Part shown: one piece after another, positions 24,061-30,173 of the stretch | How positions within the stretch are numbered: position 1 is the stretch's first letter | Layout of the letters: the number at the start of each line of letters is the position of its first letter | NCBI RefSeq assembly: GCF_014651635.1 | Contig: NZ_BMXG01000015.1 | Span: 1 to 64,000, forward strand | Origin: Cerasicoccus arenae | GTDB lineage: Bacteria > Verrucomicrobiota > Verrucomicrobiia > Opitutales > Cerasicoccaceae | Direction of reading: 5' to 3' | Length of the DNA: 64,000 nucleotides | The notes under the pieces: generated by a model | What the model saw: the letters and a program-made list of their open reading frames with translations, nothing else | What the model was told of the DNA's origin: nothing | The model's database searches: none | Translations under genes and position numbers: made by a program

Positions 24061-24247
24061 AAAATGTCGGTCTTCTTTGAAGCAAATACTGCAGCTTAAG
24101 GCGATGGTAGATGTGTATCTAGACTGGTGCGCTGTTGCGATAAGCGAACCTCTATTGGATTGCGTGAGTCGGGAAAACTTATATCAGAGAGATCGATTTG
24201 ATTGAACTTACTTGACTCATGCGTGTCAGTGTCTGATCAATCACATC

Positions 24248-24643
24248 ATGCTTCGCCAGCGCATCATCAGCTTTATGCTGTTCAGCTTCATCGTCTGGAA
24301 CACCGTCCTCGGCGGTGCAGGCGATTTGCTGCTTTGTAGTCATCATGATGGTGACGCCCATTTGGTGGGTGAATACATGGTTGATTGTCATGGGGAAAAT
24401 GAAGCAGAAACTGCGTTCTTTAGCCATTGCGATGATTTTGAGTTAGCTGGTGTTGATCTGTTAACATCATCGCGGCATGAACGACTCGTGCTGATGGCAT
24501 CGCAATGCGCCCTTACTGGTCTCGTGCCTGAGCACCTTCCACGATTTGAGGGCGTGTGGATCAAGTGCTTGCCAAATCGTGGGCCACCGCTGGCCCTGGC
24601 GCAATCGATTCTCGTCGTACAGACGACGGTACTGCGTTTGTAA
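24248..24643 (+). CDS. Small secreted Cys/His-rich protein upstream of the metal efflux pump
   Basis: The ATG at 24248 gives 131 residues with a signal-like start (MLRQRIISFMLFSFIVWNTV). Then come CSHHDGDAHLVGEYMVDCHG and FFSHCDDFE, a cluster of Cys, His and acidic residues that could bind a metal ion. The remainder is hydrophobic and ends in TTVLRL. The stop is two bases before the folded RNA element ahead of the efflux genes. I recognise no named family. Proteins like this often precede Cus/Czc operons in related bacteria, so a periplasmic metal-sensing or chaperone role is a guess from composition and position. An earlier in-frame start at 24212 is possible. Confidence 0.6.
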   Translation: MLRQRIISFMLFSFIVWNTVLGGAGDLLLCSHHDGDAHLVGEYMVDCHGENEAETAFFSHCDDFELAGVDLLTSSRHERLVLMASQCALTGLVPEHLPRFEGVWIKCLPNRGPPLALAQSILVVQTTVLRL

Positions 24644-24644
24644 A

Positions 24645-24722
24645 ATCCTGATGTAGTTATCGGCGGATTTTCGCCGGTTGATTGCTAGCCTCGGCTGGCA
24701 TTTTAACTCAACGCATCAGGAT
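24645..24722 (+). ncRNA. Three-way-junction leader that hides the ribosome binding site of the czcC-like gene
   Basis: A perfect nine-pair outer stem joins ATCCTGATG (24645-24653) to CATCAGGAT (24714-24722). It encloses two hairpins: CGGCG/CGCCG (24661-24665, 24672-24676, six-base loop) and GCTAGC/GCTGGC (24684-24689, 24694-24699, loop CTCG). The 3' strand of the outer stem contains AGGA (24718-24721), six bases before the ATG at 24728. Closed, the stem would therefore block translation. The layout resembles a translational riboswitch or thermosensor. I do not recognise a known class. Confidence 0.5.
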
Positions 24723-24727
24723 TTATC

Positions 24728-25987
24728 ATGTACTCATTTTTAAGAAATTGTCTTTTTATTCTAGCTCCCGTAGGAGCGTTATTCGCCCAGATGGAACCAC
24801 CGGATTTTTCGCATCCGGTAAACTACGCGACCGCTGTGCAATGGGCTGTGGCGCGCGACCCTCGAGTCGCCTTAGCCCGGGAGGAAGCGGAGGCTGCGGA
24901 AGGACAGATCGAGCAGGCAGACCTCCCGCCTAATCCCATTTTCGGCTTCGACATGGAGAACTTCTGGGGATCCGGTCCGGTTGATGGAGCGGAAGGCATT
25001 GAGGTAACATTCGCCGCCAGCCAGGTCATTGAGACGGCGGGAAAACAGCAGCGCCGCACTACGCTAGCTCGCCGTGAACGTGAGCTTGTCGATTGGCGGT
25101 ATGAGTTGATCATAGCCGGAATTGAGGCCGACGTACGCACAAGTTTTGTCCAGTTGTTGCTTGCTCAAGAGACGATGGAGTTGCGTCAAGAGCAGTTAGC
25201 GTTGGCCGAAGAAAGCGCAAGGGAAACGACTCGACTCGTCGAAGCGGCGAGGGTGCCATTGCTTGAGCAGACTAGGGCGGAGCTAGAGATACGCAAACAG
25301 CGTTTCGCCTTGGGACAGGCTGAGCGCGACTTGCTGGCAACGCGGACGGCGCTTGCGGTCTTATGGGGGCTCGCGCCCGCTCCGGAATTCACCGTTGATG
25401 GCGAAATTCAATTAGAGCCTGAGCTGCCAGTATTACGCGAGATCCTTGGCCGATTGTCTGAGACCGCGATGCTCGCGCAATACGCTGCTTTGGCGCGTAC
25501 TCGCGAAGCTGTATTGGACTTGGAAAAGTCGAACGCGGCACCGGACTTGGAAATCTTTGCTGGTGGGCGCTACTTCAATGAGGGAGACGGCGACTTTGGC
25601 TTCATTGCTGGTTTTGAAATTCCAATACCGGTTTTCGATCGCAATCAAGGGAATATCCGCACGGCGCGGGCTCAGTTACGTGCTGTTGAGCACGAACGAG
25701 AGGTCACGCGACGGGCATTGCTGAAGAGTGTCAGTGGTGCCTATCAGGCATTAACGGCCGCACACGCGGAAGCCTTTGCCGTGCAAAGTGAACTACTCGA
25801 AGCCGCACAGCAAAGTCTGACTGATACTCAGACTGGATACGAACGTGGGCAATACAACCAGCTCGCTGTGTTGGAAAGTCGCGAGATGCTCTTTGATATT
25901 CGCGAGACATATCTGAACGCCCTGAGGCGCTATGCTGAGGCCAAGGCTCAACTCGATGCCCTGACGCGCCCGGCGAAACTTAATTAA
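24728..25987 (+). CDS. czcC: CzcC/CusC-like outer-membrane efflux channel (TolC family)
   Basis: The 419-residue protein starts with a signal peptide (MYSFLRNCLFILAPVGALFA). Two outer-membrane efflux repeats follow, with TolC-type heptad helices: VALAREEAEAAEGQIEQADL, then NPIFGFDMENFWG, then LIIAGIEADVRTSFVQLLLA, and the second copy at about 250-400 with LEIFAGGRYF and PVFDRNQGNIRTARAQL. Its family forms the outer-membrane exit of three-part RND metal pumps. Translation is probably controlled by the folded leader just upstream. The adaptor and pump genes follow at short spacing on the same strand. The czc name is by overall similarity and the metal is not certain. Confidence 0.88.
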   Translation: MYSFLRNCLFILAPVGALFAQMEPPDFSHPVNYATAVQWAVARDPRVALAREEAEAAEGQIEQADLPPNPIFGFDMENFWGSGPVDGAEGIEVTFAASQVIETAGKQQRRTTLARRERELVDWRYELIIAGIEADVRTSFVQLLLAQETMELRQEQLALAEESARETTRLVEAARVPLLEQTRAELEIRKQRFALGQAERDLLATRTALAVLWGLAPAPEFTVDGEIQLEPELPVLREILGRLSETAMLAQYAALARTREAVLDLEKSNAAPDLEIFAGGRYFNEGDGDFGFIAGFEIPIPVFDRNQGNIRTARAQLRAVEHEREVTRRALLKSVSGAYQALTAAHAEAFAVQSELLEAAQQSLTDTQTGYERGQYNQLAVLESREMLFDIRETYLNALRRYAEAKAQLDALTRPAKLN

Positions 25988-26003: not shown

Positions 26004-27062
26004 ATGACAATGAAACCTTTCTCTATTCACTTTACGCGACAACGTTTCTTTCAAGTGCTGGTATTCAGCATTTTTATCAGCTCTGTAACACAAGCCGCCG
26101 ATGAGCACGATCATGCTGCTAAAAAGGAGCCAGCGGCCCATGATGATCACAAGGATCACGGCCATGAGGAATACGCCGCCAAGTCTGCCGATCAAGATAC
26201 CCACGATGATCATGGCCACGAGGATCATGCCGATCACGCTGCTCGCGTGTCGCCCGCTGTCCTACAGGAGTTTGGTGTAGTGTTGAGCAAGGTTGGCCCA
26301 GGAGTGTTGCACGAGGAGATCATTTTGCCGGGGGAAATTCAGTTTAACCGAGAGGCGTTGGCATATGCGACGCCGCGCTACAATGGCGTGCTGACTAAGA
26401 TCAATGCACGCCTAGCCGATCACGTGGAGGCTGGTCAAGTAATCGCCACACTGGAAAGCACGGACACGCTGCGGCCCTTTGACCTCAAGGCCCCGATTGA
26501 TGGAACGATCGTTAACTATGACGTGACGCCGGGGCAAACTGTTGAGGCCGGCACGCCGCTTTACACCATTGCCAATCTGTCGACCGTTTGGGCGGATTTA
26601 CGCATTTACCAACGCGATATGGCCAAGATTGAAAAAGGGCAAAGTGTACTTATTGACGGTGGTCATAACCTGAAGCCATTTCGCGGCAAGATCGCTTACA
26701 TTGCGCCAACAGTAGACGAGCATACGCGCACAGGGCTTGCCCGAGTCATTGTCGAAAATCATCAGCGGGATTGGAAACCCGGCCAATTTATCAAAGGAAA
26801 CGTGGCGGTCGATGAGCATCAGGCGGCCATGATCGTGCCACGCACCGCGGTGCTTACGCACGAAGGAGCGAAGGTCGTTTTCGTGCAAACAGCGGAGGGG
26901 TTCGAACCGCGACCAGTTGTGCTCGGTCACAGCGATGCGCAGTTTTTTGAAGTCCTGAGTGGGCTCAAACTCGGTGAAACTATCGCGACGAAAAACCCGA
27001 TCTCGCTGAAGGCAGAGCTGGGTAAGGCGTCCTTCGGTGGCCACGAAGGTCATGCTCATTAA
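26004..27062 (+). CDS. czcB: CzcB/CusB-like periplasmic adaptor with His-rich N-terminus
   Basis: The 352-residue product has an uncleaved or signal N-terminus (about residues 12-32). A strongly His/Asp/Lys-rich segment follows at about 33-80 (for example HDDHKDHGHEEYAAK and HDDHGHEDHADHAA) and is likely to bind divalent metal. Next come the membrane-fusion core: beta-barrel strand pieces at 95-130, the lipoyl half-motifs VEAGQVIATLES and FDLKAPIDGTIVNYDVTPGQ, and a second barrel near 230-300. It ends in another short His patch (GGHEGHAH). No long coiled-coil hairpin is obvious between the lipoyl halves, as in short metal adaptors. Lies 16 bases after the channel gene and 15 before the pump. 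Confidence 0.9.
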   Translation: MTMKPFSIHFTRQRFFQVLVFSIFISSVTQAADEHDHAAKKEPAAHDDHKDHGHEEYAAKSADQDTHDDHGHEDHADHAARVSPAVLQEFGVVLSKVGPGVLHEEIILPGEIQFNREALAYATPRYNGVLTKINARLADHVEAGQVIATLESTDTLRPFDLKAPIDGTIVNYDVTPGQTVEAGTPLYTIANLSTVWADLRIYQRDMAKIEKGQSVLIDGGHNLKPFRGKIAYIAPTVDEHTRTGLARVIVENHQRDWKPGQFIKGNVAVDEHQAAMIVPRTAVLTHEGAKVVFVQTAEGFEPRPVVLGHSDAQFFEVLSGLKLGETIATKNPISLKAELGKASFGGHEGHAH

Positions 27063-27077
27063 GTGGAGATAACAACC

Positions 27078-30000
27078 ATGTGGACGAAATTAATCGATGC
27101 GGTTCTCCGCAATAAGTTGATCGTTGTGCTGCTCACCCTTGCGGTGATGGCGGGCGGTTATTGGAGTTATGAACAGTTGCCGGTGGATGCGTTTCCTGAT
27201 GTATCGCCAGTGCTTGTGCAGGTCTTTACGGTGACCGATGGCCTAGGGCCGGAGGAAGTGGAGAAGTTCGTAACTTTCCCAGTAGAGGCCGCGATGAGCG
27301 GCCTGCCCAAGGTAAAGGAGACACGATCAGTATCGAACTTCGGACTATCGGTAGTTAGCGTGTATTTCGAGGATGGCGTGGATATTTACTTTGCCCGCCA
27401 AGTCGTCGGAGAGCGTTTGTCTGAAGCACGCGAGGCGATCCCCGAAGGATTTGGCGAGCCTGAGATGGGGCCGATCTCAACCGGCCAAGGCCTTGTTCTT
27501 TATTATAATTTGATTGATGAAAGCGGTGAGTATTCACTTGAAGAACTGCGTACCATGCAGGATTGGATTGTGAAGTTCAACTTGCAGACTGTGCCTGGTG
27601 TTACCGAGGTGCTCGGTATTGGCGGCTTCGTGAAGCAATTTCAGGTTAATATCAACCCTGATGCTTTGCTGCGTTACGGCCTTACCTTACACGAAGTTAT
27701 TGAGCGGATTGAGGCGAATAACCAGAACGTTGGCGGGCAATTTATTGAACGCAACGGTGAGATGTTCATTGTCCGTTCGGAGGGATTGGCGCAGCGAATT
27801 GAAGACCTAGAAACCATCGTCGTAGCGCATGAGGATGGCACTCCTGTGCTACTCGGCGACGTGGCCGCCATCGAGATTGGCGGCGAAATTCGCCAAGGGC
27901 TTGAGACAATGAACGGCGAACGTGAGGTCGTGTCCGGGATGGTCGTGAAGCTCTACGGCACGAACTCGTCGACCGTGATCGACGCCGTCGAAGCGAAGCT
28001 GGTGGAGATTCAAGCCGCATTGCCCGAAGGCGTGATTATCAAACCTTACTATGAGCAGAAAACACTCGTGCAGAATTCGGTCAACACGGTGACGTCTGCG
28101 CTGACGCAGGGCATCGTGCTGGTGGCGCTGGTTTTGCTGGTTTTCGTGGGCGGGTTTCGCCCGAGTGTGGTGGTTGCGTTATCGATCCCGTTTTCGGTGC
28201 TCTTTGCGACGACTGCCATGCATTTTTTCGGCATCTCAGCGAACTTGATGTCGCTGGGCGGTCTGGCGATTGCGATCGGTATGATGGTTGACGGGGCCAT
28301 CGTGATGACGGAAAACACCGACCGCATGCTGCGCTCCGCGCACGGTGATGAAACCAAGGCGCAGGTGATTTCCCGCGCTTGTAGTGAAGTCGTGAAACCA
28401 CTGAGTTTCTCGATCCTGATCGTGATCCTCGTGTTCCTGCCGCTCTTTACATTACAAGGAGTTGAAGGCAAAACGTTCCGCCCGCTGGCTTACACGGTGT
28501 CGCTGGCGATGTTGGGTTCGTTGCTTTACGCGGTGCTTGCGGCACCCGTTTACGCCTGGGTTTTTATGGGAAAACCCAAGCGGAAAGACGACTCGGCTGA
28601 GGTTAAGGAAATCCTGATCGTGCGGGTGCTCGTGGCCATTTATCGGCCGATCGTTTCGTTTTTCGTGCGGCTTCGTTTGGCGGCAATCGTGATTGCATTT
28701 GCCTTGCTTGGGCTGGGCGCATGGGTTTTTCCACAACTGGGCTCTGAGTTCACGCCTCGCTTGGAAGAAGGGGCGATCATTGCGAATTTATCGATGGCAC
28801 CCTCGGTGTCGTTGGAGGAAACCAAACGCAACACGATGCTCGCGGAAAAGCGCATCATGCAGATTCCTGAAGTCGTCTCGACGCATTCGCGGATTGGGCG
28901 CGGCGAAGTTGGCGCGCACGCTGACCCCATCAACTCCGTGCACATGATGGTCGTCCTTAAGCCATCCAATGAATGGCGAGCGGGTGTGAAGCAGGCGGAT
29001 ATCGAGCATGAAATGCGTGAGGCGTTGGAGGACATGCCCGGCGTACTGGCGAACATGACGCAGCCCATTCAACTGACCGTGGATGAGCTCGTGGGCGGGT
29101 CGAAGGCCGAACTGGCGATCAAGTTATTCGGGCCCGATTTGGATATCCTGAAAACCAAGGCTGACGAAATTGCGGCGGTGGTCTCCGACATCTCCGGCGC
29201 GGCAGATGTCCAACCCGGCCAAGTGACTGGTTCGCCGCAAATTGTGGTCCGTCCAGACCGCGCTGCGATTGCGCGATTCGGCATGAACCTTGCCGAAGTC
29301 CAAGAGCTGATCGAGGCCGCCGTGGGTGGTGTGGCAGCGGGGCAAGTATTCGAAGGCGTCCAGCGCTACGACATTTACGTGCGCTATCAGGAGCAAGCGC
29401 GTGATACGGTGGAGGACTTGGGCCAGTTGATCGTGCGCTCGCCTGATGGCGCGTTGATTCCGCTGGATGAGATTGCGGAGATCGAAGAGGTCGTTGGACC
29501 GCGACAGATTATTCGTGAGAACAGCCAGCGCTACATCGAAGTCCAAGCCAACGTGGTGGACCGCGACATTGGCAGTTTCGTTGCCGAAGCGCAAAAGGCG
29601 CTGGATAAATCCGTGACGCTGCCGACAGGTTACGTGTTGACCTGGGGCGGGCAATTTGAGCTCCAACAGGAGGCCAACAAACGCTTGATTGTGGTTGTTC
29701 CGGTTACGTTGGCCTTGATTGCGATCATGCTTTACTTGAGCCTAGGCTCGATCAAAAATACGGCGTTGATCCTTTTGAATATACCGCTGGCGCTGGTTGG
29801 TGGCGTGGTTGCACTTTGGTTGGCCGGAGAAAATTTGTCTGTGCCGGCGAGTGTTGGCTTCATCGCTTTATTCGGTATTGCGTTGGGTAACGGCATGGTG
29901 CTCGTCACCTGCCTGAATCAACTGATCTCTGACGGTATGCCAGTGGTGGAGGCGAGTATTCATGGTGCGTGCCTACGTTTGCGTCCGGTGCTGATGACTG

Positions 30001-30173
30001 CGGCGACAACGGCGTTGGGGCTGATCCCGCTGCTGATGGCCGATGGCTCGGGCAGCGAGGTGCAACGCCCCTTGGCGACGGTGGTCATTGGCGGACTTGT
30101 CTCTTCAACGATTCTGACACTACTCGTCGTGCCCGCGCTGTATCCGTGGTTTTCCCGTACAAATCGAATCTAG
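27078..30173 (+). CDS. czcA: CzcA/CusA-like heavy-metal RND pump
   Basis: The ATG at 27078 has a GGAG site seven bases upstream and gives 1031 residues; a GTG five codons earlier is less likely. The protein shows the 12-segment HME-RND layout with two large periplasmic loops. Proton-relay region in segment 4 reads AIAIGMMVDGAIVMTEN: the central Asp and the later Glu of the family are kept, but the first Asp found in Zn/Co/Cd pumps is Ala, as in Cu/Ag pumps. In the porter domain, SMAPS and HMMVVLKP keep Met where CusA has two of its three metal Met. The third position reads DELVGG, more like CzcA. The substrate is therefore uncertain. Confidence 0.9.
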   Translation: MWTKLIDAVLRNKLIVVLLTLAVMAGGYWSYEQLPVDAFPDVSPVLVQVFTVTDGLGPEEVEKFVTFPVEAAMSGLPKVKETRSVSNFGLSVVSVYFEDGVDIYFARQVVGERLSEAREAIPEGFGEPEMGPISTGQGLVLYYNLIDESGEYSLEELRTMQDWIVKFNLQTVPGVTEVLGIGGFVKQFQVNINPDALLRYGLTLHEVIERIEANNQNVGGQFIERNGEMFIVRSEGLAQRIEDLETIVVAHEDGTPVLLGDVAAIEIGGEIRQGLETMNGEREVVSGMVVKLYGTNSSTVIDAVEAKLVEIQAALPEGVIIKPYYEQKTLVQNSVNTVTSALTQGIVLVALVLLVFVGGFRPSVVVALSIPFSVLFATTAMHFFGISANLMSLGGLAIAIGMMVDGAIVMTENTDRMLRSAHGDETKAQVISRACSEVVKPLSFSILIVILVFLPLFTLQGVEGKTFRPLAYTVSLAMLGSLLYAVLAAPVYAWVFMGKPKRKDDSAEVKEILIVRVLVAIYRPIVSFFVRLRLAAIVIAFALLGLGAWVFPQLGSEFTPRLEEGAIIANLSMAPSVSLEETKRNTMLAEKRIMQIPEVVSTHSRIGRGEVGAHADPINSVHMMVVLKPSNEWRAGVKQADIEHEMREALEDMPGVLANMTQPIQLTVDELVGGSKAELAIKLFGPDLDILKTKADEIAAVVSDISGAADVQPGQVTGSPQIVVRPDRAAIARFGMNLAEVQELIEAAVGGVAAGQVFEGVQRYDIYVRYQEQARDTVEDLGQLIVRSPDGALIPLDEIAEIEEVVGPRQIIRENSQRYIEVQANVVDRDIGSFVAEAQKALDKSVTLPTGYVLTWGGQFELQQEANKRLIVVVPVTLALIAIMLYLSLGSIKNTALILLNIPLALVGGVVALWLAGENLSVPASVGFIALFGIALGNGMVLVTCLNQLISDGMPVVEASIHGACLRLRPVLMTAATTALGLIPLLMADGSGSEVQRPLATVVIGGLVSSTILTLLVVPALYPWFSRTNRI

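Follow-up and report, generated by a model that had tools for sequence, protein, structure and literature searches.

A conserved RNA stem over the czcC Shine-Dalgarno sequence of Cerasicoccus arenae, probably operated by ribosomes on an upstream Cys/His-rich small ORF

Whether an RNA placed directly in front of a metal-efflux operon controls the translation of that operon, and to what such an RNA might respond, is the question raised by an intergenic region in the 64,000-nucleotide stretch of Cerasicoccus arenae DNA analysed here (the window). On the forward strand, a spacer of 84 nt separates the stop codon of a small ORF (TAA, 24641-24643), hereafter the uORF, from the start codon of a czcC-like gene (ATG, 24728). 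The latter gene (24728-25987), which would be the first under the control of a switch, encodes an outer-membrane efflux protein (Pfam OEP, E=7e-40). It is followed on the same strand by a czcB-like adaptor with a His-rich N-terminus (26004-27062; HlyD_D23 and IhpB/CzcB-type matches) and by a czcA/cusA-like heavy-metal RND pump (27063-30173; TIGR00914, 1079.7 bits, over the cut-off).

Minimum free energy (MFE) folding of positions 24643-24724 predicts a three-way junction. Its closing stem, P1, pairs a 5′ anti-Shine-Dalgarno arm (AAATCCTGATGT, 24643-24654) with a 3′ arm (GCATCAGGATTT, 24713-24724) that contains the Shine-Dalgarno sequence (SD) AGGA (24718-24721), while inside it a short helix, P1b (GTT at 24656-24658 with AAC at 24710-24712), leads to two hairpins, P2 (24661-24676) and P3 (24677-24707). 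The first-pass annotation had described a perfect nine-pair stem from 24645 enclosing two hairpins, with AGGA in its 3′ arm; stem, hairpins and AGGA are all present, and only the extent of the stem has to be revised, to 12 pairs (11 Watson-Crick and one G-U) from 24643, so that P1 starts on the third base of the uORF stop codon. The fold is far more stable than that of dinucleotide shuffles (MFE -40.2 vs -19.9 +/- 3.0; z = -6.87), none of the 200 shuffles being equally stable, and with P1 held fixed the interior of the window leader still gives z = -3.6. The leader RNA occurs as a single copy in the C. arenae genome, which rules out a repeat or mobile element.

A covariance search for homologous leaders, proposed when the sequence was first read, was productive: a model built from six relatives, with the window sequence left out, scores the window site with 29.7 bits (genome-wide E = 5.8e-5) and also recovers further leaders across the order. 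With a second covariance model the family grew to include other members of the class as well as leaders from another lineage of the phylum (G744/G807), and a scan of named genomes placed leaders in Opitutales/Puniceicoccaceae, in Coraliomargarita and in one Kiritimatiellaeota bacterium. In total, 52 leaders were examined, from Opitutales and from a lineage further removed within the phylum. Free MFE folding yields a two-branched (three-way) junction in 49 of these and three to five branches in the others; with P1 fixed, all of 29 leader interiors are two-branched, vs 49% in shuffles, at a mean z of -4.1. Every leader examined is directly preceded by a small ORF, P1 starts about 0-6 nt from its stop codon in nearly every case, and CzcC homologues found in the same bacterial family have the same arrangement upstream. 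A genome pattern scan returned 45 matching stretches, among which strong folds (about -34 to -50 kcal/mol) are found essentially only after a uORF, always one with an [LI]R-type terminus or the variant of it seen in L119. A chance palindrome was rejected as an explanation of the uORF-linked leaders, which have the strong fold and the uORF terminus in common; the remaining matches (in Flavobacterium, Rhizobium, Bacillus and others) have weak folds and no such uORF, and we therefore attribute them to chance.

Compensatory changes in relatives, whose lack the first-pass annotation had listed as an argument against its proposal, were found in P1. Paired arms include TCCTAATAC/GTATTAGGA, ATCCAAATAC/GTATTTGGAT, AAACCTG/CAGGTTT, TTTCCTAAT/ATTAGGAAA and GCCAGATTGAA/TTCAATCTGG, and compensated departures from ATCCTGAT/ATCAGGAT are present in eight loci (L176, L177, L181, L182, L196, L201, L203 and L204). 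When arms were exchanged among 14 divergent leaders, own arms scored 22.9 and swapped arms 12.9, and none of 20,000 permutations reached the observed sum; the register was optimised equally for true and swapped arms in this comparison, a per-sequence choice of register being enough on its own to inflate the result. We also approached the RNA from the protein side, with a uORF profile search of 223 genomes that gave 30 loci with readable downstream DNA that were absent from the RNA-derived set. A P1 stem linking the stop region to a czcC-type SD is present in 23 of the 30, and in the other seven (L180, L187, L200, L202, L205, L206 and L207) it is absent or reduced to a weak closing pair. P1 is thus conserved through compensatory changes in distant relatives. 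The strong covariation support is for P1, not for P2 and P3; these are misaligned in the MAFFT alignment of all leaders and were therefore judged within close groups only, where the outcome of the shuffle control, 7 and 27 of 500, is modest.

In the models, the SD of czcC is sequestered by this conserved stem. The mean probability that the SD is unpaired, modelled over 46 leaders, is 0.02 for the free RNA, stays at 0.02 when a ribosome stands at the R[AG]PP motif of the uORF (described below) and rises to 0.36 when it stands at the stop codon, for an assumed ribosome footprint that extends some 12 nt past the first base of the A-site codon; in the window leader the value with the stop region masked is 0.32, so that the SD becomes accessible only in part. 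Coupling of neighbouring genes by RNA unfolding is an accepted model, of which rpmI-rplT (+52 nt) is a near analogue (PMC12548453). The 84-nt gap is long for re-initiation, a point against coupling, though in view of that example unfolding may still act across it, and the model shows what such coupling calls for: a sequestered SD, a P1 that adjoins the stop codon, and an accessibility that rises on average from 0.02 to 0.36. The proposal of an SD-sequestering translational switch of the CzcCBA operon is hence supported, with the compensatory changes in P1 of relatives behind it. A transcription start downstream of 24653, named beforehand as another observation that would speak against it, is unlikely in view of the conserved linkage of uORF and RNA.

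The uORF (24248-24643, forward strand) encodes 131 amino acids from the ATG at 24248, near which the alignment with its homologues begins; the frame is open from a TTG at 24212. Its product is a small protein of predicted export type, as judged from a stretch of hydrophobic residues that the alignment shows at its N-terminus and at that of most homologues, and is a putative nascent-chain metal sensor. The frame is under purifying selection in related groups (pN/pS 0.2-0.5). Most homologues carry an [LI]LLC[LI]H..H motif and Cys clusters including CXXC and CCH, the CXXC lying about 45-50 residues before RAPP. In the window protein the candidate metal ligands are CSHH...H, DCH and HC; the first Cys of the CXXC is missing and RGPP replaces RAPP. 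The C-terminus follows the pattern R[AG]PP-x17-[VQ][LI]R[LIV]-stop: the RGPP codons (24578-24589), which form an arrest-type motif, place the first Pro 19 residues from the C-terminus, and a conserved 17-codon tail (LALAQSILVVQTTVLRL) with the stop TAA completes the frame (24590-24643). Nearly all homologues with the motif have its first Pro at the same 19 residues from the end, the rest at 18 to 24. The window protein matches within the uORF family, in a profile of which its own sequence was part; it has no Pfam or NCBIfam match, a profile search of the uORF against PDB gave nothing useful, and a search for a plasmid relative of the uORF found none.

From these observations, we hypothesize that the spacer is an intercistronic RNA switch operated by the ribosome, with the export-type Cys/His small protein as its sensor, a reading that we consider probable. 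P1 would hide the czcC SD as long as no terminating ribosome is present. According to the modelling, a ribosome that has translated the uORF as far as the stop codon, where P1 begins, would cover the 5′ arm and so free the SD, and CzcCBA translation would then depend on that ribosome. The small Cys/His-rich protein, presumably exported during its synthesis, is most likely the metal sensor, to judge from its motifs and context; metal on the nascent chain would alter the time that ribosomes spend at R[AG]PP or at the conserved V-L-R-[LI]-stop end. RAPP and RGPP are demonstrated arrest motifs (PMC10951233, PMC12992588). Since R[AG]PP lies 54 nt upstream of P1, arrest at this motif should not open the stem, while release can, which favours a chemistry like that of CruR (see below) with inverted output, metal turning expression on; such an output would suit an efflux pump. 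The logic that we prefer, and which is the least certain step of the proposal, is therefore as follows: in the absence of metal the ribosome would be held at RGPP with P1 closed and the pump off, and metal would release the arrest, bring the ribosome to the stop codon, open P1 and turn the pump on. We put forward more tentatively, as a possibility that we would not favour at present, that the nascent chain passes two checkpoints, an arrest at R[AG]PP 54 nt before the RNA that keeps the pump off and is released when metal binds the half-exported peptide, and a so far undescribed slow termination at [VQ][LI]R[LIV]-stop that parks the ribosome on P1 and turns the pump on; if true, the shift of the arrest motif would have turned CruR-type chemistry round, so that metal switches expression on.

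The best-surviving alternative, although unlikely, is plain translational coupling that sets stoichiometry, with no sensing by the nascent chain and with a small protein that acts after export, for instance in the periplasm like CzcI. An SD-hiding stem at the stop codon suffices for this under the RNA unfolding model (PMC12548453), and one uORF homologue, L149, weakly matches the CzcI family NF045614 (E=2.6e-4, below the cut-off). The RNA is also kept in L100 and L198, in which PP is missing, so R[AG]PP is not indispensable. The fixed distance of R[AG]PP and the conserved C-terminal tail are, on the other hand, arrest-type signatures, and proteomes avoid RAPP-like sequences, which are enriched in uORFs that precede metal genes (PMC12992588). 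Where PP is missing, as in L198 and L204, the terminal [VQ][LI]R[LIV]-stop is still conserved (L183 has ELRL), which suggests that the stop codon holds a second element.

That the RNA senses metal itself, as the first-pass annotation had considered, is very unlikely. A riboswitch whose three-way junction binds a metal ion or another ligand and thereby opens or closes P1 would fit a stable, conserved junction, a sequestered SD and a metal-efflux operon. Across 17 leaders, however, the invariant columns are confined to P1, the SD and the ATG, with none in the hairpins or junction across families, although the interior aligns poorly and a small pocket could escape this comparison; P2 and P3 vary freely in length and sequence, and Rfam 15 has no match above the gathering score in the window. 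The RNA is always tied to a uORF and travels with it, not with czcC, and it is the Cys/His content of the uORF that tracks the downstream gene: in L064, L070 and L208 the same RNA and uORF tail accompany His runs in place of the Cys clusters, and the gene downstream is HupE/UreJ-like (a call made on the look of the sequence, without a profile) rather than czcC-like. Least probable of the readings is a transcription attenuator (P1 with a T-run terminator) or an RNA-processing element whose hairpins set the stability of the uORF and czcC segments: GGATTTTTT follows P1 in many leaders and a terminator-like match occurs at P3 in the window (one found, 1.0 expected), but the window T-run is interrupted (GGATTTATC) and overlaps P1 itself, conservation is centred on the SD complement and on adjacency to the stop codon, and the terminator reading was rejected because the T-run is not conserved after P2/P3.

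The ribosome-operated switch that we favour has a general precedent in SecM-secA, in which an exported uORF with an arrest motif is likewise followed by an intergenic stem that hides the next SD; that system monitors the Sec pathway, unlike the metal sensing proposed here. The SecM arrest site adjoins the stem, whereas the R[AG]PP of the Opitutales uORFs lies 17 codons upstream of the stop. The layout is therefore already known, contrary to the initial impression that no described class has it, and it is closest in CutF-cutO of Rhodobacter capsulatus, where Cu binding prolongs stalling and unfolds a stem over the cutO SD (PMC9973294). Both systems have a small export-type uORF bearing Cys, a PP motif near its C-terminus, a short intergenic fold over the next SD and metal homeostasis genes downstream. 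CutF-like genes are widespread, and their commonest neighbour is OEP (CzcC/CusC), or HupE/UreJ for the His-only ones (PMC9973294); the exchange of Cys for His before the HupE/UreJ-like genes in L064 and L070 is as reported for CutF-like proteins (PMC9973294). The Opitutales uORFs differ in their fixed V-L-R-[LI]-stop tail, in a leader that forms a three-way junction rather than the stem-loop described for CutF-cutO, and in their hosts, which belong to Opitutales and to a remote lineage within its phylum, whereas other phyla dominate the CutF-like survey, the main text of which does not name Verrucomicrobiota (PMC9973294). Because their PP stands 19 residues from the C-terminus, they also fail the filter of that survey, PP within 15 residues of the C-terminus (PMC9973294).

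Two further systems are similar in part. In CruR (DUF2946), encoded by the uORF of bfrG in Bordetella pertussis, arrest at RAPP (demonstrated in PMC12992588) is relieved by Cu (PMC9426467). A predicted export segment, a CXXC at similar spacing before RAPP in many homologues and a downstream metal gene recall this system in the Opitutales uORFs. The CruR RAPP lies 3 residues from the end and is followed by a 162-nt gap and Rho-dependent termination; in Opitutales it lies 17 codons before the stop and is followed by an SD-hiding stem. The window protein has no match to DUF2946 (PF11162); its best-matching homologue, L047, aligns weakly from CXXC to RAPP below the gathering score (E=0.034; 15.3 bits, cut-off 23.7), and when the uORFs are compared, profile against profile, with genuine DUF2946 proteins from the phylum, the segment from CXXC to RAPP aligns with a probability of 71%. 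CzcI of Cupriavidus metallidurans is likewise a small protein encoded upstream of czcCBA, and is classed as CutF-like (PMC9973294); it lacks a C-terminal proline motif, and no SD-hiding RNA is reported for it in that paper. The links to uORFs of the CutF, CruR and CzcI types are weak singly, but taken jointly and with genomic context these sequence comparisons support kinship or convergence.

We found no description of the Opitutales leader RNA in the literature searched. The RNA element thus appears undescribed, and the system departs from the known kind in its displaced arrest motif, in the conservation of a three-way junction and in occurring in a lineage that the survey filter leaves out. 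If our reading is true, nascent-chain metal sensors such as CutF and CruR extend to Opitutales and to efflux pumps of the CzcCBA class, in a group that surveys demanding PP near the C-terminus would miss, and with an RNA partner whose covariation support makes the mechanism directly testable. The near-invariant gap of 17 codons between R[AG]PP and the switch raises the question of how the placement of such a motif determines whether regulation is positive or negative.

Several individual loci deserve separate mention. L100 / L119 (G016, Opitutales isolate jk18x7bins.13) keep the RNA after a uORF whose C-terminus reads ...RGSFEIAPLGVMLKQAVVWLL; RGPP and the VLR terminus are both missing, which makes this variant a useful natural mutant. 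In L016 (G008:C20) uORF and czcC are kept with a spacer of about 310 nt, and a partial P1 (CTGATTTGGT/ACCGAATCAG) is possible around the large insert. The modules of L141 and L150 (JAACDF010000085/86), from a MAG labelled Gammaproteobacteria, are nearly identical to those of Opitutales, and these contigs are probably mislabelled or misbinned. Classical DUF2946 (CruR-type) genes occur in the same phylum (L071, L156, L157 and L158), with RAPP or RGPP 2-6 residues from the end; three of the four are followed by another ORF at a distance of 62-67 nt from the stop. At L200, L202 and L207 (G056:C51, G030:C87 and G005:C1), homologous uORFs that lack PP and end in IVLR[LI]-stop are followed by a cysteine-synthase-like gene (MN.LxDSIT.TIGNTPLVKINRT), and the spacers between them, of 115-118 nt, form a strong hairpin and no strong SD stem; a link between metal sensing and cysteine synthesis is possible there. 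Finally, Coraliomargarita sp. SDUM461004 (G041:C78, NZ_JARXIC010000021.1) carries four uORF-RNA modules within about 30 kb, at 17-47 kb of the contig, apparently a metal-resistance island.
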